The position numbers were made by a program, and so were the translations under genes. The notes beneath the pieces were generated by a model. It searched no databases. It saw nothing but the letters and a program-made list of their open reading frames with translations, and was not told the DNA's origin. From Elusimicrobia bacterium RIFCSPLOWO2_01_FULL_54_10 (lineage in GTDB: Bacteria > Elusimicrobiota > Elusimicrobia > 2-02-FULL-39-32), in the NCBI GenBank assembly GCA_001799975.1, contig MGUQ01000022.1, positions 14,823 to 25,767 of the forward strand: DNA of 10,945 bases. The letters run 5' to 3'. This document shows, one piece after another, positions 1 to 10,945 of the stretch. Every line of letters starts with the position of its first letter. The first letter of the stretch is position 1.

Positions 1-2592
1 GTCCCCATCCAGAAAGTGGTGGAGGCCATCCGCGGCGGCAACAACGATGTCGGCGGCCGGCTGATCGAAATCGGGGGCGCCGAATACATGGTGCGCGGCC
101 GGGGCTATGCCAAAAGCGTGGAGGACATCGAGAACATTGTCGTCGGGCTGGACAAAAAAGGAACGCCCACCCTGGTCAAGAATGTCGCTCGCGTGGTCCT
201 GGGCCCGGACATCCGCCGGGGGATCGCGGATTTGGATGGAGAGGGGGACGTCGTGGGCGGCATCGTGGTCATGCGTTTTGGAGAAAACGCATTAAATGTC
301 ATCGAGCGGGTCAAGGCGAAACTTGAAGAAATACGGCCCTCCCTTCCCGAAGGCGTGGAGATCGTCACCACCTATGACCGTTCCAACCTCATCAAGGAAG
401 CGATCCATACAGTCAGAGAGGCGCTGACCCTGGAAATGCTCATCGTGAGCTTGGTCATCATCATCTTCCTTCTCCATTTCCCGAGCGCGCTCTTACCCAT
501 CCTGACCTTGCCCGTTGCCACCGTCATGAGCTTCATCCCCATGATGTTCATGCGCATCACCTCCAGCGTGATGTCTCTGGGCGGCATCGCCGTGGCGGTG
601 GGCGACATGGTGGACGCATCCATCGTTATGGCCGAGAACGCACACAAGCGGCTCGAAGAGTGGACCCAAGACGGAAAAAAAGGCGACCACAGGGAAGTCA
701 TCATCAAGGCCATGAAAGAGGTGGGCCCCTCCGCTTTCTATTCTCTCATGGTGATGGCCATCGCGTTCCTGCCGATCTTTGCCCTGGAAGGCCAGGCGGG
801 GCGGCTGTTCAAGCCACTGGCCTACACCAAAAACCTGGCGCTCGCCTTGGCAGCCATCCTGGCCATCACCCTGGCTCCCGCGGTGCGGTTGCTGTTCACC
901 CGATTGGAACCGTATGATTTCAAGCCGGCCTGGTTGGCCAAAATCGTCAACTGGCTCACCGTGGGCAAGATGTACGCCGAAGAGGACCACCCTGTCAGCC
1001 GTCCGATGCACAGGATCTACCTGCCGGTCGCGGAATGGGTCATTAAATTCAGAAAGACCGTGATAGTTGGCGCCTTAGCGCTCGTGCTTTTGACGATTCC
1101 GGTTTATTTTAAGCTCGGCCGCGAGTTCATGCCCACCCTGGAGGAAGGAACCATCCTCTACATGCCCACCACCCTGCCCGGACTTTCCGTGGCAGAGGCG
1201 CAGAAGCTTCTTCAAGCTCAAGACACGATCCTCAAGAGTTTTCCGGAAGTGGAGAGGGTGTTCGGGAAAGCCGGCCGCGCGGAAACCCCCACGGACCCCG
1301 CGCCTTTTTCCATGATGGAAACGACTGTGATCTTGAAACCCAAAAAAGTGTGGCGCTCCGGCATGACCTATGACAAGCTCGTGGACGAGATGGACGAGAA
1401 AATGCGCTTCCCGGGCGTCACCAACGCCTGGACCATGCCCATCAAGGCGCGCATCGACATGTTGACCACCGGCGTTCGCACTCCCATCGGCATCAAAGTC
1501 TTCGGCGCCGATTTGACGGAGATCGAGGAGATCGGAACTCACCTCGAAATGATTTTGAAAGACATTCCCGGAACGCGCAGCGTTTATGCCGAGCGCACGG
1601 CGGGCGGCTATTTCCTGGACTTTGTCCTCAAGCGGGAGCAGCTGTCCCGTTACGGTTTGACCGTGGACGAGGCGAACATGGTCATCATGTCGGCCATCGG
1701 CGGCGAGACCGTGACCACGACCGTGGAAGGGCGGGAGCGATATACCGTCAATGTCCGCTACGCCCGCGAATTCCGCGATGACCTTTCCAAGCTGCGCCGC
1801 GTTCTGGTCCCCACGATGTCCGGCGCGCACATCCCCATCACCCAGATCGCGGACATCCAGATGGTGCATGGGCCGTCCATGATCCGCAACGAGAACGGCA
1901 TGCTGGCCGGCTATGTCTATGTGGATGTCGCCGGGCGGGACGTGGGGAGTTATGTGACCGAGGCCAAGCGCCTGGTCCTGGAGAAGTTGGATCTAAAACC
2001 CGGCTATTCACTCACCTGGAGCGGGCAGTACGAAAGCATGATGGCCGTGAAAAGCCGCCTCATGGTGGTCGTTCCCCTGACGCTGTTCATCATCATCGTC
2101 CTGCTCTATATGAGCACGAAATCCATGGTGAAGACGGGCATCGTGCTCCTGGCCGTGCCGTTCAGCGCCATCGGCGCCATCTGGCTCCTCTGGGCTCTGG
2201 ATTACAACATGAGCACGGCGGTGTGGGCCGGCATCATCGCCCTCTTGGGCCTGGACGCAGAAACGGGAGTTTTCATGCTGCTCTATCTGGACATGGCGTT
2301 TGACGAGCGCGTCCGTCAGGGCAAAATGAAAAGCTTTGACGACCTGAAAGAAGCCGTCATCCACGGCTCCGTGCGCCGCATCCGGCCCAAGGTGATGACC
2401 GTGATGACGAATTTCCTGGGGTTCATCCCCATCCTGTGGGCAACTGGAACTGGGGCGGATGTCATGAAGCGCATCGCCGCTCCCATGGTGGGCGGCCTTT
2501 TCACTTCTTTCGCCCTGGAGCTTCTGGTCTACCCTGCGATTTATTTCATCTGGAAATGGAACTATGAGATGAAAAAAGGAGAAATACAATGA
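1..2592 (+). CDS. cusA: CusA/CzcA-type RND heavy-metal efflux pump, inner-membrane subunit (5' truncated), probably Cu(I)/Ag(I)
   Basis: This is the proton-driven inner-membrane subunit of a tripartite metal exporter that works with a CusB-like adaptor and a CusC-like outer-membrane channel. The reading frame is open from base 1; 863 residues are visible, and by alignment to E. coli CusA (1047 aa) about 190-200 N-terminal residues lie outside the window. The visible start is mid-domain (NNDVGGRLIE, GAEYMVRGRGY), so the GTG at 16 is not the true start. The proton-relay residues known from CusA (D405, E939, K984) have counterparts at D205 in GDMVDASIVMAEN, E754 in LDAETGVFML and K797 in RRIRPKVMT. 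The three CusA copper-relay methionines (M573, M623, M672) have counterparts at M388 (LYMPTTLPG), M438 (PFSMMETT) and M487 (RIDMLTTG), with spacings of 50 and 49 identical to CusA. This favours Cu/Ag over Zn/Co. E. coli numbering is from memory. The stop overlaps the next gene in ATGA. Confidence 0.95.
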   Translation, partial: VPIQKVVEAIRGGNNDVGGRLIEIGGAEYMVRGRGYAKSVEDIENIVVGLDKKGTPTLVKNVARVVLGPDIRRGIADLDGEGDVVGGIVVMRFGENALNVIERVKAKLEEIRPSLPEGVEIVTTYDRSNLIKEAIHTVREALTLEMLIVSLVIIIFLLHFPSALLPILTLPVATVMSFIPMMFMRITSSVMSLGGIAVAVGDMVDASIVMAENAHKRLEEWTQDGKKGDHREVIIKAMKEVGPSAFYSLMVMAIAFLPIFALEGQAGRLFKPLAYTKNLALALAAILAITLAPAVRLLFTRLEPYDFKPAWLAKIVNWLTVGKMYAEEDHPVSRPMHRIYLPVAEWVIKFRKTVIVGALALVLLTIPVYFKLGREFMPTLEEGTILYMPTTLPGLSVAEAQKLLQAQDTILKSFPEVERVFGKAGRAETPTDPAPFSMMETTVILKPKKVWRSGMTYDKLVDEMDEKMRFPGVTNAWTMPIKARIDMLTTGVRTPIGIKVFGADLTEIEEIGTHLEMILKDIPGTRSVYAERTAGGYFLDFVLKREQLSRYGLTVDEANMVIMSAIGGETVTTTVEGRERYTVNVRYAREFRDDLSKLRRVLVPTMSGAHIPITQIADIQMVHGPSMIRNENGMLAGYVYVDVAGRDVGSYVTEAKRLVLEKLDLKPGYSLTWSGQYESMMAVKSRLMVVVPLTLFIIIVLLYMSTKSMVKTGIVLLAVPFSAIGAIWLLWALDYNMSTAVWAGIIALLGLDAETGVFMLLYLDMAFDERVRQGKMKSFDDLKEAVIHGSVRRIRPKVMTVMTNFLGFIPILWATGTGADVMKRIAAPMVGGLFTSFALELLVYPAIYFIWKWNYEMKKGEIQ

Positions 2593-2882
2593 GGATTACA
2601 ATCATTGGGATAGCTCTCATTTTCATGCTTTCTTTGAGCGGATGTATGCTGATGCACATGGACCATGGAGGACACGACTCAGACCACGAAACCCAATCCG
2701 GAGGCAAAACTTCCGAGGGCAACTCCTCAATAAACGATGTCTCGATTTCCACCGCTTCGGTCTCTGGGACATCCGGCTCGGACCCGCATGAGAAAAAGCA
2801 TAAACAATCCAAGAAATCCAGGACTCTCATGTTTTTGGGCGGAATCGGCATGGGATTGATGATGGTTTTGATGGTTCTATAG
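2589..2882 (+). CDS. Small Met/His-rich lipoprotein of the copper cluster, function unknown
   Basis: This 97-residue protein matches no family I can name. A lipoprotein signal is visible: R2 as the only N-terminal charge, a hydrophobic stretch, and lipobox L16-S17-G18-C19, so the mature protein should start at lipidated Cys19. Straight after it comes a metal-ligand-rich stretch (MLMHMDHGGHDSDHE, residues 20-34) with several Met and His. A low-complexity Ser/Thr/Gly linker follows, then a Lys/His patch (about 67-77), and a hydrophobic Met/Gly-rich segment fills residues 79-97 up to the very C-terminus. A lipid anchor plus a terminal hydrophobic helix is an unusual combination in so small a protein. 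The ATG overlaps the cusA stop (ATGA) and is preceded by AGGAG at 2577-2581, 7 nt upstream, so it is translated with cusA. A copper-binding or pump-accessory role is inference from composition and neighbours. Confidence 0.8.
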   Translation: MRITIIGIALIFMLSLSGCMLMHMDHGGHDSDHETQSGGKTSEGNSSINDVSISTASVSGTSGSDPHEKKHKQSKKSRTLMFLGGIGMGLMMVLMVL

Positions 2883-2933
2883 TAGAGTTCACGCAAAGCA
2901 AGGGCTTGAAATCAACATACTGAGGAGAATACG

Positions 2934-3335
2934 ATGATGAACAAAATGATGGTAGGATCGGCAATCATGGCAGGGTTATTGTTCTCGGGATGGATCTACG
3001 CTGAAGAAGGCCACAAGCACGGGCAAAAAGAGGCGAGTAAAACCGGCGCGCAGACGATCCAGGGCGAAGTGCTGGACATGGTCTGCTTCATGGCGCATGA
3101 GGGTCAGGGACCCAAACACAAGAGCTGCGCGCTCAAGTGCGTGAAGGAAGGCGCGCCCATGGGTTTGCTCACGAAAGACGGCAAAGTCTATCTGCTTATC
3201 GAAGATCATGCGTCGAAAAAACCCTATGAGCAGATGAAGGACTGGGCGGGAAGCCAGGCGACCGTCAAAGGAGATGCCTTCGAGAAGGGCGGCGTCCAGG
3301 CGATTGTGGTCAAAACATCTGAGAAAGGAAAGTAA
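2934..3335 (+). CDS. Exported Cys/His protein of the copper cluster, probable periplasmic metal-binding protein
   Basis: This 133-residue protein begins with a Sec-type signal peptide (MMNKMMVGSAIMAGLLFSGW, probable cleavage after A23), followed by His-containing EEGHKHGQ. The mature part is one small domain with a Cys/His set: C51 in VLDMVCF, H62, C65 in HKSCA and C69 in LKC, then GAPMGLL and a short beta-rich region (DGKVYLLIEDH, ATVKGDAF, VQAIVVK). I recall similar uncharacterised proteins with a DMxC(F/Y) ... HxxCAxxC ... GxPxGLL pattern beside metal-resistance genes, but cannot name a characterised member. Three Cys and one His suit a soft-metal site or a redox site; this is inference. 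The start at 2934 is supported by GAGGAG at 2922-2927; a second in-frame ATG at 2937 is possible. It lies 51 bp after the lipoprotein gene with no obvious terminator or promoter between. Confidence 0.8.
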   Translation: MMNKMMVGSAIMAGLLFSGWIYAEEGHKHGQKEASKTGAQTIQGEVLDMVCFMAHEGQGPKHKSCALKCVKEGAPMGLLTKDGKVYLLIEDHASKKPYEQMKDWAGSQATVKGDAFEKGGVQAIVVKTSEKGK

Positions 3336-3343
3336 CTCCAATT
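3325..3343 (+). promoter_or_regulatory. Shine-Dalgarno and probable ATT start of the DUF2231 gene
   Basis: AAGGA at 3325-3329 sits inside the end of the upstream gene, and ATT at 3341-3343 follows 11 nt later. It is the only near-cognate codon at workable spacing that still leaves the conserved HPIAVHFPIAL motif inside the protein. The upstream stop TAA (3333-3335) falls between them, so coupled re-initiation is likely. Which codon is used is inferred, not proven. Confidence 0.45.
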
Positions 3344-3790
3344 CCTCCCCCCTATCTGCTTCACCCGATTGCAGTTCATTTTCCCATAGCTCTTCTAACC
3401 CTGGGGATGGCACTTGCGCTGATTCATCAGGTTTGGAAAAAAGGGGATTGGGAATGGCTTGAACCGGCATCGCTTTGGCTCCTTTGGATCGGGACTTTGA
3501 GCGCGGCGGCGGCCGTGGGGCTGGGGCTCCTTGCGGAGGAAACCGTCCCACATGTGCCAGCGGCCTGGGAGGCGATGGAAGAGCACGAAACGCTTGCTTT
3601 CTGGACCCTGGGACTGTTCGCTGCCCTCTCACTCACACGGATATTACTCCGGAAAAAATGGGACTCTCTGGCAAACAAATGGAAGGTCATATTTCTTGGG
3701 GGATGGGCGGTTGCCATTGGAGTGCTTATTGCCACAGCTCAGCACGGAGGCGATCTGGTATACAACTACGGGGTTGGGTTTATAAAGTAG
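3341..3790 (+). CDS. DUF2231 family four-helix membrane protein, probable non-canonical ATT start
   Basis: This is an inner-membrane protein of the DUF2231 family, function unknown. The first ATG in frame (3407) would give 127 residues but cut into helix 1. The same frame upstream encodes LLHPIAVHFPIALLTLG, the conserved N-terminal family motif with H8, P9 and H13 (counting from ATT 3341), so the real start must lie before it. Between the in-frame TGA at 3320-3322 and ATG 3407 there is no ATG, GTG or TTG. The ATT at 3341 lies 11 nt after an AAGGA Shine-Dalgarno (3325-3329) and 6 bp after the previous stop, so I place the start there, giving 149 residues. CTG at 3356 is the alternative. Four membrane helices are visible, at about 9-30, 41-63, 80-101 and 112-133, and the C-terminus has the family-typical GGDLVYNYGVGF. 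Related proteins often sit beside cytochrome or metal genes; a copper role here rests on context only. Confidence 0.75.
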   Translation: MPPPYLLHPIAVHFPIALLTLGMALALIHQVWKKGDWEWLEPASLWLLWIGTLSAAAAVGLGLLAEETVPHVPAAWEAMEEHETLAFWTLGLFAALSLTRILLRKKWDSLANKWKVIFLGGWAVAIGVLIATAQHGGDLVYNYGVGFIK

Positions 3791-3832
3791 ATTTTGAGGC
3801 GGAGCCGTTTAAAAACCTGGGAGGAGAAATCG

Positions 3833-4189
3833 ATGAAGTCCATCACAAAAGCAGTAATGGTTACAATGTTGGGAATCAGCGTTTCGTTCGCGGCGCCCAA
3901 GCCGAAAGCCAAAGCAATCTCGGAAGCGGTTTTAGCTCCGGGAGCTTACAGCGCGCAGGTGAAAGGAATCGTCTGCGGGGGCTGCGGACAGCTCATTCAA
4001 CAAACATTGGAAAAGTTCAACGGGATAGAGAAGGTCGCCGTCAACCAGGACGAGAAAACGGTCAACTTCCAGGTCAGGAAGGGGAGCAAGCTGAAATTAT
4101 CAGAAATCCAGAAGGCCTTGCAGGCGTCCGCCGGAAAAATGGGCATGGGAGCAGATTATACTCTTCAAAACCTTAAGAAAGTTGGCTGA
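3833..4189 (+). CDS. Exported HMA-domain metal-binding protein (MerP-like)
   Basis: This 118-residue protein is a small heavy-metal-associated (HMA) domain protein of the MerP/CopZ fold, predicted to be periplasmic. Residues 1-20 form a signal peptide ([20 protein letters not shown], cleavage likely near A20/A21), followed by a basic, Ala/Pro-rich linker. The HMA domain spans about residues 39-100, with the metal loop [12 protein letters not shown] (C48 and C51, a variant of GMTCxxC), then a helix, [10 protein letters not shown] and the beta strand [10 protein letters not shown]. The ATG at 3833 is chosen because GGAGGAG lies at 3820-3826 just before it; a longer frame from 3794 would put 13 charged residues ahead of the signal peptide. 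The gene ends 7 bp before the ATG of the copper ATPase. A periplasmic metal chaperone or buffer between the ATPase and the RND pump is a reasonable inference. Metal preference (Cu versus Hg) is not shown, though no mer genes are present. Confidence 0.88.
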
Positions 4190-4196
4190 GTTCATC

Positions 4197-6488
4197 ATGG
4201 ATGCGACTGTCAAATCTACAGACCCTGTTTGCGGCATGGATGTTGTTCCTGGAGAATCTCGCGGAGGTTCCTGGAATTTACACGGAAAGACCTTTTATTT
4301 CTGCAGTCCAAATTGCAAGGAGAAGTTTAAGGCAAGTCCGGGACAATATCTTTCGCCGATAGTCTCCCCTCCAGCGGCAGATTCCCAAGCCATGTACACC
4401 TGTCCCATGCACCCCGAGATCCGTCAACAAGGGCCCGGTTCCTGTCCGATCTGCGGCATGGGCTTAGAGCCGTTAATGGTGAAGGATCAAGAACCAGATA
4501 ATCCTGAGCTCACGGACATGAAGCGCCGCTTTCGCTGGAGCGTGAGTTTGACAATTCCTGTTTTTATTCTGGGAATGTCCCACTGGCTGCCCAGTCACGA
4601 GTTGCGAGAACAGATGACCCGGCCCTTTTGGCTTTGGGCGCAGGCGCTGCTTTCGGCCCCGGTCATCCTCTGGGGAGGCAGGCCATTTTTCGAAAAGGCT
4701 TGGGCCTCGCTCAAGCGCAAAAGTCCGAACATGTTTACCCTTATCGGCCTTGGAACAGGGGTGGCCTTTCTTTATAGCCTGGCTGCTCTATTTTTCCTTG
4801 ATCAAAAATTATTTTTGGATGCCCATGGAGCTGTCAATGTGTATTTTGAGGCGGCAGCCGTGATCATTGTCCTGGTCCAGTTGGGCCAAATTTTGGAGTT
4901 AGGCGCCCGGGCTCGGACCGGAGGAGCTATCCGGGCTCTGTTGGGACTCTCTCCCAAAACAGCGCGGCGTTTGAATCCGAACGGTCAGGAAACCGAAGTC
5001 TCATTGGACGACATTCATCCTGGGGACAGATTGAGAATCCGGCCGGGCGAAAAGATCCCGGTGGACGGCGCGGTCCTGGACGGCGCAAGCGCGGTGGACG
5101 AGTCCATGATCACAGGCGAGCCCATGCCCGCGGCCAAGGAACCGGGCAGCCCCGTGACGGGAGGCACCGTCAACGGCCAAGGCAGTTTTGTCATGGAAGC
5201 CCGGCGCGTAGGCCGCGAGACCCTGCTGAGCCGCATCGTGGAGATGGTGAGCCAGTCTCAGAGAAGCCGGGCGCCGATTCAGCGCCTCGCGGATCAGGTT
5301 TCATTTTATTTTGTTCCGACCGTGATGGTCATTGCGGTTTTAAGCTTCACGGTTTGGGGGATTTTGGATCATTGGGACTATGCGATTTTAAGCGCTGTCT
5401 CCGTTCTCATCATCGCCTGTCCTTGCGCTCTGGGCCTGGCAACCCCCATGTCCGTCATGGTCGCCGTGGGCAAAGGGGCAACGTCGGGAATTTTAATTCG
5501 AGACGCCGAATCCCTGCAAATTCTGGAAAAGGTGGATACTTTAGTGGTTGATAAAACTGGAACATTGACGGAAGGCCGCCCCCGCCTCAAGCAAGTCGTT
5601 CCGGTTGCCTCCTGGCCGGAACAAGAGCTGCTCTCCTGGGCGGCAAGCCTGGAACAATCCAGCGAACATCCCATAGCGCAAGCGATTGTTTCTGCCGCAA
5701 AGGAACGAGGATTCAGCATTGATTCTGCTCAAGGATTTCAGGCAGTACCGGGCAGCGGCATTCGGGGAACCGTGTCCGGACATCGAATCCTTCTGGGCAA
5801 TTTGCGGTTGCTTTCGGAAAATGGCGTTTCAATTGATAAAGATGACGCAAAATTCACCGCTATAATGGGATCGGGCGTGACCGTCATGGCGATGGCTGTC
5901 GATGAAAAGCTGGCGGGCTATCTCGCTGTGGCGGATCTAATCAAACCCTCCACCCCGGAAGCCGTCCGGCAGATTCGGAATGAAGGAATCCGTCTCATCA
6001 TGCTGACCGGCGATCAAAAACCGGCCGCGCAAGCCGTGGCGAATGAATTAAAAATAGAAGAATTTACGGCGGAGTTGCTGCCGGGAGACAAAAAGGCTGT
6101 CATCGAACGTTTGCAAAAGGAGGGGCGCATCGTGGCCATGGCCGGGGACGGGATCAATGATGCGCCGGCTCTGGCTCAAGCGAATGTGGGCATTGCCATG
6201 GGGCACGGCAGCGATGTGGCTCTGGAAAGCGCCGGGGTGACACTGATTAAGGGGGATCTTCGAGGCATCGTATCTGCCCTGCGGCTGGGCCGATCTGCAA
6301 TGCGCAATATCCGGCAAAATCTGTTTTTTGCCTTTGCCTATAATGCGCTCGGGGTCCCTATAGCCGCAGGCATTCTATTCCCCTGGACAGGATTGATGTT
6401 GAGTCCCATCATCGCCAGCGCGGCCATGAGTTTGAGTTCGGTGTCTGTGATCGTCAATGCGTTGCGTCTGCGCCAGATGAAACTGTGA
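4197..6488 (+). CDS. copA: Cu+-exporting P1B-type ATPase with N-terminal YHS and TCPMHP metal-binding domains
   Basis: This inner-membrane pump uses ATP to move Cu+ (or Ag+) out of the cytoplasm. From ATG 4197 it has 763 residues. Residues 7-52 form a YHS domain (DPVCGM with C12, FCSPNC with C36 and C40). Residues 66-93 form a heavy-metal-binding domain (YTCPMHPEI with C69 and H72; [11 protein letters not shown] with C83 and C86). There is no classical HMA domain. The ATPase core is complete: TGE actuator (306-308), CPC metal site (C408-P409-C410), DKTGT with phosphorylated D452, SEHP with H491, MLTGDQ and GDGINDAP (from G650). The late helices carry AYN and [16 protein letters not shown], the Cu+-type P1B-1 signature. 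TTG at 4182 is an alternative start adding five residues; neither has a strong Shine-Dalgarno, so coupling to the HMA gene is likely. The end overlaps the convergent secreted-protein gene by 35 bp. Confidence 0.96.
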
Positions 6489-7743: not shown

Positions 7744-9045
7744 TTACAAGCCGGCGCGCTTAAAAATCAAGTCCCGGTGGCGCACGTAATAGGCAGGATT
7801 GAAGCACTCGAGGATGTCTTTCTCAGACAGCACAGCGCGGATTTCGCGGCTCTCCAGAATGAGTTTCTTGAAATCCTTGCCTTCCGTCCAGGCCTTCTGG
7901 GCGTTGCCCTGCACAAGCTTGTACGCGTCTTCGCGCGAATATTTCCCTTTGGATTTCTGCAAGATTTCCAACAGCAGCCTCTGCGAAGCCAAAATCAAAA
8001 AAGTCTTATTGAGATTTTGCTTCATCCGGTCCGGATAAACCTGGAGCCCCGAGATGATGATCGTCATGCGGTGGAGCATGTAATCCAGCAAGATGGTGGA
8101 GTCGGGCAGGACCACACGCTCTACGGAGGAATGGGAAATGTCCCGCTCATGCCAGAGGGCCATATTTTCCATTGATGCCTGAGCGTTGGAGCGGAGAAGC
8201 CGGGCCAATCCGCAGATGTTCTCACATCCCACGGGATTGCGCTTGTGCGGCATGGCGGAGGAGCCCTTTTGCCCTTCCGTGAAGGGTTCTTCAGCTTCCA
8301 TAACTTCCGTCCTCTGCATATGCCTGATTTGGAGCGCGATCCGCTCGAGCGTGCCGCCGATCAAAGCGATCGTGGAGAGAAACTGAGCGTGACGGTCGCG
8401 AGGCACAATCTGAGTGGAAACCGGCTCCACCTGCAACCCCAGCTTGGCCATCACAAACTTTTCAAGTGCGGGGTCCAGATGCGCGTAAGTCCCCACCGCG
8501 CCGGAGATCTTTCCAAAAGCGACGGCCTTCTCTGCCTCCGCCAACCGCTGTTCATCTCTCATGACTTCGGAGTACCATCCGGCGACTTTCAGCCCAAAAG
8601 TGGTGGGCTCGGCGTGCACCCCGTGCGTACGGCCTGCCATAATGGTGTCCTTGTGCTTTTTGGCCAGTGAGGCGAGCGCTTTTTTGAGGAGAGAAAGCTC
8701 ATCCGCAAGCAATTTGGAAGACCGCACCATCTGCACGGCGAGCGCCGTGTCCAAAACATCCGAAGAAGTCATGCCCATGTGCAGGTGGCGGGCCGCCTTG
8801 CCCACCTTGCGCTCCACTTGCGTCAAAAAAGCGATGATGTCGTGCTTGACCACCTTCTCGATCTCGTTGATTTGCGCGACATCGATGGCGGCTTTCTTGC
8901 GCACCTGATCCAGATCAGCCTTGGGCACTTTCCCGGCCTTGACCATGGCTTCCATGGCGAGGATTTCCACTTCAAGCATCACCTGAAAACGATTTTCATC
9001 GGCCCAGATGGCCGACATCTCAGGGCGGGAATAGCGCGGGATCAT
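7744..9045 (-). CDS. purB: Adenylosuccinate lyase
   Basis: PurB catalyses two beta-eliminations of fumarate: SAICAR to AICAR in de novo purine synthesis, and adenylosuccinate to AMP. The 433-residue cytoplasmic protein is close in length and sequence to the Bacillus-type enzyme (about 431 aa). Family landmarks in order are the N-terminus IPRYSRPEMSAIWADENRF, MGMTSSDVLDTALA (90-103), GRTHGVHAEPTTFGLK with the conserved His pair (138-153), GKISGAVGTYAHLDP (178-192), and the fumarase/aspartase superfamily signature GSSAMPHKRNP on the flexible catalytic loop (261-271), followed by LWHERDISHSSVERVVLPD. It ends DLIFKRAGL, as expected for a full-length protein. The start codon overlaps the purM stop by 4 bp (ATGA), which points to translational coupling in the operon. 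Confidence 0.98.
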   Translation of the reverse strand: MIPRYSRPEMSAIWADENRFQVMLEVEILAMEAMVKAGKVPKADLDQVRKKAAIDVAQINEIEKVVKHDIIAFLTQVERKVGKAARHLHMGMTSSDVLDTALAVQMVRSSKLLADELSLLKKALASLAKKHKDTIMAGRTHGVHAEPTTFGLKVAGWYSEVMRDEQRLAEAEKAVAFGKISGAVGTYAHLDPALEKFVMAKLGLQVEPVSTQIVPRDRHAQFLSTIALIGGTLERIALQIRHMQRTEVMEAEEPFTEGQKGSSAMPHKRNPVGCENICGLARLLRSNAQASMENMALWHERDISHSSVERVVLPDSTILLDYMLHRMTIIISGLQVYPDRMKQNLNKTFLILASQRLLLEILQKSKGKYSREDAYKLVQGNAQKAWTEGKDFKKLILESREIRAVLSEKDILECFNPAYYVRHRDLIFKRAGL

Positions 9046-10019: not shown

Positions 10020-10618
10020 TACTTGACCCTGCTGCCGGGCTTGACCGCCGGAGTGCCCTCTTTGCAGAGCGGACAGTCTTGCGGAGAGTAATCTTTGAGG
10101 GGAAGTTTCAGCAGAACGGTCTTGGTGGTGCCAAAATTGATGGGAGCCGCACTCCGCTCGGCCACGGAAGCCACGCCGAGAAGCTTGGCGCCGGCGTTTT
10201 GCGCCAGCTGAACGATTTCTTTCAATGAGCCGCCGGTGGTGATAACGTCTTCCACAGCCAGCACGGTTTCTCCCGGTTTGATTTCAAAGCCTCGGCGCAG
10301 TTTGAGCTGGCCGTCAGAGGAATCCCGCTCGGCGAATATGGCGCGGCAGCCCAATGCACGGGCCACCACATGGCCCAAAATAATGCCGCCCAAGGCAGGA
10401 GCGCAGACGGCGGAGAGCCGCACGGGCACTCCGGCGTTTTCTTCGCGCACGCGGGCCACAAGCTCTTCCCCAAGCCGCTCGGCCACATCCGGATGCTGAA
10501 GCACAAGGGCGCACTGGATGTACATGTCAGAATGGCGTCCGGATGTGAGCTGAAAATGCCCTTCCAGGAGAGCCTGTTTTTCTTTGAATAAATTCTTGAT
10601 TTCGTGTTCGGCCATCAT
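10019..10618 (-). CDS. pyrE: Orotate phosphoribosyltransferase
   Basis: PyrE joins orotate to PRPP to make OMP, the fifth step of UMP synthesis; PyrF, encoded just upstream, then decarboxylates OMP. The 199-residue protein shows GHFQLTSGRHSDMYIQC (20-36), the orotate-side region seen in the bacterial/archaeal short type, ALGGIILGHVVARALG (75-90), AIFAERD (93-99), and the PRPP-binding motif VLAVEDVITTGGS (119-131). The C-terminus contains DCPLCKEGTPAVKPGSR with C182 and C185, a tail common in this subtype. ATG at 10618 is preceded by a good GAGGTGA Shine-Dalgarno that forms one arm of an inverted repeat covering the start codon. A second ATG follows immediately, so the start could be one codon later. 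The stop overlaps the purM GTG by one base. Confidence 0.97.
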   Translation of the reverse strand: MMAEHEIKNLFKEKQALLEGHFQLTSGRHSDMYIQCALVLQHPDVAERLGEELVARVREENAGVPVRLSAVCAPALGGIILGHVVARALGCRAIFAERDSSDGQLKLRRGFEIKPGETVLAVEDVITTGGSLKEIVQLAQNAGAKLLGVASVAERSAAPINFGTTKTVLLKLPLKDYSPQDCPLCKEGTPAVKPGSRVK

Positions 10619-10680
10619 CCCATCACCTCTTCACATCTAAAGTGGTGGAACCATTCTATTTTATTTCTAGGTGATGGGAT
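10617..10680 (-). promoter_or_regulatory. Perfect 12-bp inverted repeat masking the pyrE ribosome-binding site and start codon
   Basis: On the minus strand, ATCCCATCACCT (10680-10669) begins inside the pyrF stop codon, and its exact reverse complement AGGTGATGGGAT (10628-10617) contains the pyrE Shine-Dalgarno and the first two bases of the pyrE ATG. The intervening loop is 40 nt and is A/T-rich near pyrF; it contains a small 4-bp hairpin (TGGT TCC ACCA, around 10642-10652). In mRNA the arms would pair and hide the pyrE start. A ribosome finishing pyrF would cover the upstream arm and free it. The repeat is seen directly; the regulatory role is inference. No U-tract follows, so it does not look like a terminator. 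Confidence 0.6.
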
Positions 10681-10945
10681 CATTGGAATGCCCTCGCAAT
10701 CTTGAGTATTGTTTGCACCCTGTCTTCAGCTTCCAGAATGGGGCGGCCCACGATGAGATAATCCGCTCCCGCCTTTATTGCCGCTTCCGGCGTCATGACT
10801 CTTTTTTGGTCGTCTTTCTTGCGCTCTTCTGCCGGCCGGATGCCGGGAACGCCGATAAACATGTTTCGCCCGATGGCCTTGCGCACTGTTTTAATTTCAA
10901 GCCCGGAAGCCACCACCGCGTCCAGCCCCGCTTTTCTGGCCAGAG
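10680..10945 (-). CDS. pyrF: Orotidine 5'-phosphate decarboxylase, C-terminal part (5' end outside the window)
   Basis: PyrF decarboxylates OMP to UMP, the last step of de novo pyrimidine synthesis. The frame is open to the right edge of the window; 87 residues of the C-terminal part are visible out of about 230-240 usual. Recognisable pieces are LARKAGLDAVVASGLE (the end of the barrel before the phosphate site), IGVPGIRPAEERKKDDQKRVMTPEAAIKAGADYLIVGRPI (here split at PGIRP / DDQKRVMTP / GADYLIVGRPI), the hallmark phosphate-gripping region with its conserved Arg in GRPI, and a final helix ending KIARAFQ. The GTG at 10916 is internal, not the start. The stop lies 61 bp before pyrE on the same strand, placing the two consecutive UMP-pathway enzymes side by side. 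Confidence 0.95.
   Translation of the reverse strand, partial: LARKAGLDAVVASGLEIKTVRKAIGRNMFIGVPGIRPAEERKKDDQKRVMTPEAAIKAGADYLIVGRPILEAEDRVQTILKIARAFQ

Follow-up and report, generated by a model that had tools for sequence, protein, structure and literature searches.

The junction of pyrF and pyrE in Elusimicrobia bacterium RIFCSPLOWO2_01_FULL_54_10 is filled exactly by a hairpin, which raises the question of whether it is a control device belonging to pyrE or came to lie there in some other way. In the window (the whole stretch of DNA that was analyzed, 10,945 nt) the arms form a perfect 12-bp inverted repeat on the minus strand (10617-10628 and 10669-10680). Its left foot is the pyrF stop codon TGA and its right foot is a Shine-Dalgarno-like AGGTGA, then the pyrE ATG (10618-10616), all as described in the initial annotation. 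Read on the minus strand, the junction is CAATGA TCCCATCACCT-(40 nt)-AGGTGATGGGA TGATGGCC, or more widely ...GCATTCCAATGA TCCCATCACCT (40 nt) AGGTGATGGGA TGATGGCCGAACAC..., and a repeat finder reports it as a repeat (I1) of 15 nt with 93% complementarity. Folding of 10600-10700, a check that had been proposed for the hairpin, gave -32.5 kcal/mol (z = -3.15, matched by 2 of 200 shuffles), and the 68 nt comprising the element described below and its TGA flanks gave -26.7 kcal/mol (z = -5.72, 0 of 200). The gene names also stand: pyrE scores above the TIGR01367 cut-off, purM and purB are likewise above NCBIfam cut-offs, and the 87-aa end of pyrF exceeds the cut-off of PF00215, with pyrF models matched below their whole-protein cut-offs. 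The purine and pyrimidine genes adjoin two genes on the plus strand (window 1-6488), one for RND-type efflux (PF00873) and one for a P-type ATPase of the copper type (TIGR01511, above cut-off). The features of the junction are listed in Table 1.

Table 1. Features of the pyrF-pyrE junction, in window coordinates.
Feature	Position	Strand	Basis
Inserted palindromic element, 62 bp, TCCCATCACCT...AGGTGATGGGA	10618..10679	-	Further copies of the arms in this genome; no insert at this site in G001 and G002
Left copy of the 3-bp target duplication, TGA (pyrF stop codon)	10680..10682	-	Sequence; empty sites read ...ATGATG...
Right copy of the duplication, TGA; rebuilds ATG with the last A of the element	10615..10617	-	Sequence; TGA on both sides in 57/85 copies
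Left arm TCCCATCACCT, anti-Shine-Dalgarno-like	10669..10679	-	Sequence and repeat finder
Right arm AGGTGATGGGA with Shine-Dalgarno-like AGGTGA	10618..10628	-	Sequence and repeat finder; AGGTG predicted P(unpaired) 0.004
Relay mini-ORF of 22 codons, MIPSPRNKIEWFHHFRCEEVMG*, which begins at the old pyrE start, crosses the element and ends in a stop that overlaps the new pyrE ATG	10615..10683	-	Sequence
pyrF, 3' part, orotidine-5'-phosphate decarboxylase; runs off the window	10680..10943	-	ORF and family models
pyrE, orotate phosphoribosyltransferase, TIGR01367	10019..10618	-	ORF and family model

The fit of the hairpin to the two genes had been thought hard to ascribe to chance, and the draft genome from which the window comes (G000; 1.89 Mb, 79% complete) bears this out: searched for the arms with any loop of 20-50 nt, it has them at four places, pyrE and three others with different loops, and a reversed-pattern control gave none. 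With one half-site mismatch allowed there were 76 matches versus 14 in the control, and additional arm pairs carry matching changes in both arms. In all of the first eight copies read, TGA is directly repeated on both sides and the copy lies at the start of a downstream ORF (in one, L058, the upstream frame has only 56 codons). TGA is also found on both sides of all 27 copies known from this genome (16) and from G002 (11), a set for which part of the single half-sites were read and some members were found by patterns containing TGAT and ATGA. From the rebuilt start, 26 of the 27 open into an ORF of at least 60 codons, and in the other (G000:C108) the ORF enters assembly Ns. The pyrF-pyrE hairpin is one copy of a dispersed palindromic element, here 62 bp long, with TGA duplicated on both sides.

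Sites without the element are found in two genomes of the same genus. A comparison with relatives had been suggested as a check on the hairpin, and it went against a device specific to pyrE: G001 and G002 keep the pyrF-pyrE order and the overlapping stop and start, without insert or hairpin. For the 16 element-bearing genes (pyrE and 15 others), protein similarity (identities of about 53-92%) identified 30 corresponding junctions in the other two same-genus genomes, possibly including a paralogue, and in none of the 30 do the 120 bases upstream of the start contain the element. NTGA stands at the gene start in 26 of these empty junctions, mostly as ATGA, with GTGA at proC and TTGA at a PHP gene in G000; the four junctions lacking it (BatA-like, dinB, trmD and PHP) are all in G001. 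At trmD, the filled site CTATGA-(59 bp)-TGAGCC of G002 is matched by TTTATGAGCC in G000. Read from the DNA itself, such pairs are the footprint of an insertion that duplicates 3 bp and rebuilds the start codon. Among the genes behind the element, purQ, gcvPB, trmD, proC, kdsA and proS scored above a family cut-off and dinB was matched partially, under the cut-offs; the remaining names are those we presume from sequence. A 56-bp copy on G000:C123 precedes a lipoyl-ligase-like gene located after gcvPB. Within the operon of the window, the purM-purB junction (9042-9045) is an ATGA overlap that is still empty.

The flanks were examined over a wider range of genomes with a pattern made of the arms only (CCAYCACCT-N37..67-AGGTGRTGG), which found 152 copies in 19 of 21 genomes chosen as element carriers, and none in the control. 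Flanks were fetched and read for 85 of these copies, and are identical over 3 bp in 77: TGA in 57, CCA or TGG in 11, TTA in four, TAA in two, and CGC, TCG and ACA in one each. The start rebuilt by the 57 TGA copies is ATG in 38, GTG in 18 and TTG in one, and it opens an ORF of at least 60 codons in 47; the other forward frame does so in 13, and the reverse frames in 8, 16 and 14. Among the ten without such an ORF, one (L175) enters Ns and two (L227 and L243) leave their loci. Copies flanked by CCA or TGG have an ORF of this length in 5 of 11 cases.

Stricter patterns were used to survey more genomes; these contain TGAT/ATGA and, unlike the arms searches of G000 and the 21 genomes, cannot test the duplication. 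In the class to which the window belongs, such a pattern occurs in 5 of 235 genomes, at 33 places (control 0). A similar pattern found 59 stretches in the GTDB collection (84,980 species), a scan that may omit records near the window's own genome; all are in Elusimicrobia or Omnitrophota/Omnitrophica records, from two little-known phyla, many with groundwater in the isolate name. Among 285 genomes drawn from the phylum to which an Omnitrophota carrier belongs, 17 had the arms-only pattern, a few apparently by chance (control in 2 genomes), and the strict pattern had no matches in viral contigs.

Several unusual arrangements were seen among the copies. On contig C12 of G238 (loci L256, L261, L266 and L150), elements of 63, 125 and 116 bp stand at three successive gene starts, the genes resembling gas-vesicle gvpF/L homologues. 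Elements of 110 and 86 bp adjoin in L099 and share one TGA, and at G245:C81:1483-1565 one element is nested within another. Four loci from MHFT records (L114, L130, L133 and L136) have a similar flanking repeat, with the element in one orientation in three and flipped in L136, which suggests inversion in place or a larger compound repeat. Minimal palindromes also occur (L333 on G156:C37, L332 and L331), for example one of 27 bp with TTA directly repeated on its two sides, and palindromes of 54 and 72 bp have TAA or unequal flanks. Two loci of G156 (L251 and L263) carry AGGTGGTGGGATGA at gene starts, without a clear left arm and after AGGGTATAGGGT/ACCCTCTACCCT repeats, and are possibly related or decayed elements.

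Element length follows the reading frame. The frame survey drew 124 copies from all loci, including biased ones; each had to show the same 3 bp on both sides and to pair at 13 of the 15 stem positions, or over 11 bp in the shortest elements. With 12 of 15 pairs the window copy fell outside it, as did a 35-bp copy in G000:C70, and both were read separately. TGA copies at a rebuilt start make up 74 of the 124, four of them with ORFs under 60 codons that leave their locus, and their length modulo 3 is 2 in 54, 0 in 17 and 1 in three. Of the 74, 71 have no stop codon within the element when read in frame 0, the frame of the old start codon (the NTG on its left side). The other two forward frames are open in 32 and 33, and after shuffling of the loops frame 0 is open in 36.1 on average and in 46 at most. 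Such openness is in part general, since 47 of the 74 also lack a stop in frame 0 when the reverse complement is read. In all 54 start copies of length 3n+2 (38 to 200 bp), the frame ends exactly at the right TGA, a stop that shares bases with the new start (ATGA or GTGA). Among the three copies of length 3n+1, two stop 8 nt before the end, at a TGA within the right arm (AGGTGATG...), and the third 17 nt before it. Because copies are related, each distinct length was given one vote; once the window copy (62 bp) and the 35-bp copy had been added, 3n+2 accounted for 15 of 21 lengths (P = 4e-4, rising to 1.8e-3 with all six 3n lengths counted). The relay of the window has the same layout as the 54, although it is not among them. 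The 54 relay peptides share, with few variants, the N-terminus M-I/T-P-P/S-P, and their final G follows V-V, V-M or a near variant; most open with Met-Ile/Thr-Pro-Pro-Pro. Runs of this type can stall ribosomes.

In 114 distinct elements the outer stem is paired up to position 15, with pairing dropping to 52% at position 16, and positions 12-15 are variable in sequence yet paired in 93-96%, versus 50-64% when shuffled. A perfect 15-bp stem is present in 64 of 86 oriented TGA-flanked elements, and the loops of seven folded copies contain at least one further hairpin. Mismatches on the sense strand (G-U 6, A-C 13, other 11) do not support selection on the stem at the RNA level, G-U being rarer than A-C; since pairing lacks an RNA-specific signature, it may be kept for movement, by palindrome repair or because folded DNA is recognized. 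Pairing of the AGGTG upstream of the new start is predicted to be almost complete, with a median P(unpaired) of 0.000 in 46 copies (one of 47 was skipped). Masking of 10 nt in the left arm, which a terminating ribosome may bring about, raises the predicted value to a median of 0.25 (range 0.00-0.76), and to 0.16 in the window, where AGGTG thus stays mostly paired, a point that counts against the relay explanation given below. Conservation of AGGTG is partly built in, because AGGTG or CACCT was in the patterns behind most copies.

We consider with good confidence that a small mobile palindrome without a gene of its own (35-200 bp at starts, with a 3-bp duplication and a preference for TGA) inserted into the ATGA of pyrF-pyrE, and that its ends fit translation through a relay ORF. 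As the sequence shows, the palindrome entered the overlapping stop and start and duplicated TGA, so that the left ATGA retains the pyrF stop together with the old pyrE start. This old start opens the frame of the relay mini-ORF across the element, and the frame ends at the right TGA, overlapping a new pyrE ATG made of the last A of the element and the duplicated TG. The putative Shine-Dalgarno sequence in the right arm would be sequestered in the stem, and for that reason it is expected to become accessible chiefly during termination at pyrF or translation of the relay. The relay frame itself is plainly open; its translation would preserve the coupling of the two genes, and a ribosome pause at the proline run may help to open the stem. 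As the element supplies translation signals of its own, a gene that it interrupts can probably still be translated. Of the two models offered in the initial annotation, the one in which pyrE is translated only when pyrF is translated stays plausible, as a general property of the element, because AGGTG is predicted to be paired and the relay joins pyrF to pyrE.

A second class of copies lies within genes. An ORF that stays open for at least 50 codons on either side surrounds 31 of the 56 copies of length 3n, versus 8 of 62 for 3n+2 and 0 of 6 for 3n+1, figures from which roughly an eighth is expected by chance. Alignment to solved sequences shows clean inserts. In PurF, query residues 279 and 306 align to the adjacent residues 270 and 271 of PDB 1gph, and in AspA residues 110 and 131 align to the same chain position, 86, of 1j3u. 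Comparison with a D-hydantoinase showed a 14-residue gap at the insert, and in GlgA the gap at the insert was split by the aligner. The inserts shown are mostly PPP...GGG or near variants, with HHL...QVVGW in 3 of 15. The start-codon and in-gene copies could together form one class of mobile DNA that is transparent to translation, a 3n+2 lineage serving as start-codon relay, with a stop/start overlap at each end, and a 3n lineage as a Pro-Pro-Pro...Gly-Gly-Gly linker, and moving perhaps as a folded single-stranded hairpin; we put this forward tentatively, at slightly less than even chances. Movement as a single-stranded hairpin is proposed because, in copies of 27-39 bp, the two ends could probably not be brought together as double-stranded DNA.

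The strongest competitor to insertion of an element fitted to translation is an ordinary MITE-like repeat moved by a TGA-preferring transposase, its location at starts being the residue of purifying selection in a gene-dense genome and its open frames a by-product. The 3-bp duplications do vary in sequence, copies are also found outside starts in G018, G009, G156 and Omnitrophota, the reverse complement is often open too, and an 89-kb sample was 93% coding by rough ORF calls. That sample held 35 (A/G)TGA gene starts and 101 intergenic (A/G)TGA sites, and if only these were tolerated, all 24 of 24 copies falling at starts would have P = 7e-15, with starts taken from the rough calls and in-frame sites within genes left out. 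Selection alone would also have to account for the frame from the old start being open in 71 of 74 copies, against 33 in another forward frame, and we regard this reading as unlikely.

The enzyme that moves the element was sought in two ways. Long copies bearing a transposase were not found among the AGGTGGTGGGRTGA half-sites of five genomes (14 loci read), nor, by position, among the AGGTGGTGGG half-sites of three genomes, in draft genomes that are incomplete and with part of the unpaired half-sites read. The longest paired copies are 200, 125, 117, 116, 110 and 107 bp, too short for a transposase gene. Among incomplete drafts, DDE_Tnp_1 was present in 3 of 13 carrier genomes versus 12 of 20 non-carriers, and Y1_Tnp (PF01797) in 10 of 13 carriers versus 14 of 20 genomes without the strict pattern, so that carrier counts support an association with neither.

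These counts bear on a further alternative, that of a REP-like palindrome mobilized by an enzyme of the single-strand type (HUH, Y1), for example a RAYT. REP/RAYT palindromes are short hairpins dispersed in bacterial genomes, a trait that the element shares, being a stable hairpin as short as 35 bp at starts, and most carriers do have Y1_Tnp. However, Y1_Tnp was not found in the drafts of G000, G009 and G245, all rich in copies, it is nearly as frequent in non-carriers, and the element has direct 3-bp duplications, which HUH enzymes are not known to leave. Because the RAYT link was tested and did not hold, the element was not filed as a REP, and this origin is judged quite improbable.

Still less credible is removal of the element from mRNA, or its skipping by ribosomes, which would make the insertions silent. 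It would explain why insertions within conserved enzymes are tolerated, but length modulo 3 and the open frames are strongly constrained, and neither would matter if the element were removed. Least of all do we credit a pyrimidine-specific regulatory hairpin or ligand sensor at pyrE, the second model of the initial annotation: in its favor are the folding z of -3.15 and the exact fit to the pyrF stop and pyrE start, a fit that exists because the element inserted into ATGA with duplication of TGA, and a pyrimidine riboswitch or attenuator is rejected because the junction is empty within the genus, which refutes the specific form, and because the same element precedes purQ, gcvPB, trmD, kdsA, proC, proS and other unrelated genes. 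Nor was an Rfam family found, the models giving one match for the window junction, far below the gathering score, and likewise one for 20 loci (MIR394, RsmY).

Mobile elements usually survive by avoiding genes, and this palindrome apparently survives by conforming to translation: it falls on start codons, restores a start as well as a stop/start overlap, has a sequence resembling a ribosome-binding site at either end, and keeps to a length and an inner frame that would pass ribosomes along. If this is true, the filled and empty junctions of sister species are natural before-and-after pairs for testing translational coupling, and the element offers a compact model for the spread of short palindromes through coding DNA.

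Among known systems, MITEs such as Chunjie of Geobacter uraniireducens are likewise short, with terminal inverted repeats, a target duplication and no gene. The element shows the same traits, as palindromes of 27-200 bp without a gene, with a 15-bp outer stem, identical 3-bp flanks in 77 of 85 copies and empty counterparts at 30 of 30 junctions, and no parent insertion sequence was found in the draft genomes searched. MITEs differ in being normally intergenic according to a review whose main text contains neither start codon, stop codon nor ribosome (PMC10969869). Rickettsia palindromic elements (RPE), in the account given by the same review, share the palindrome, the dispersal and the in-frame insertion inside ORFs (PMC10969869), seen here in the 3n copies (31/56, versus 8/62 for 3n+2) and in the gaps of PurF, AspA and hydantoinase. 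The element lies in other phyla and has a 3-bp duplication, the likeness being one of description, and its start-codon class, with a relay ORF and a Shine-Dalgarno-like end, is absent from that description of RPE as far as it extends (PMC10969869). The pneumococcal BOX, RUP and SPRITE are also small structured repeats, of other sequence and in another host; in the sections available, BOX and RUP have inverted ends and target duplications and BOX can supply a start codon, and targeting of start codons is not described there (PMC3049150). Native ATGA/TGATG overlaps are widespread (PMC6728339, in the part available), and the element enters and recreates such an overlap, whereas native junctions are not mobile inserts. 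The accessible parts of two papers link stop/start overlap to coupling through termination-reinitiation or RNA unfolding (PMC6728339, PMC12548453), with both RNA unfolding and ribosome scanning described in the latter. A partial literature search found no start-codon-targeting relay element in print. The element works like a MITE, its in-gene class is like a Rickettsia palindromic element, and its start-codon relay class appears to be the new feature.
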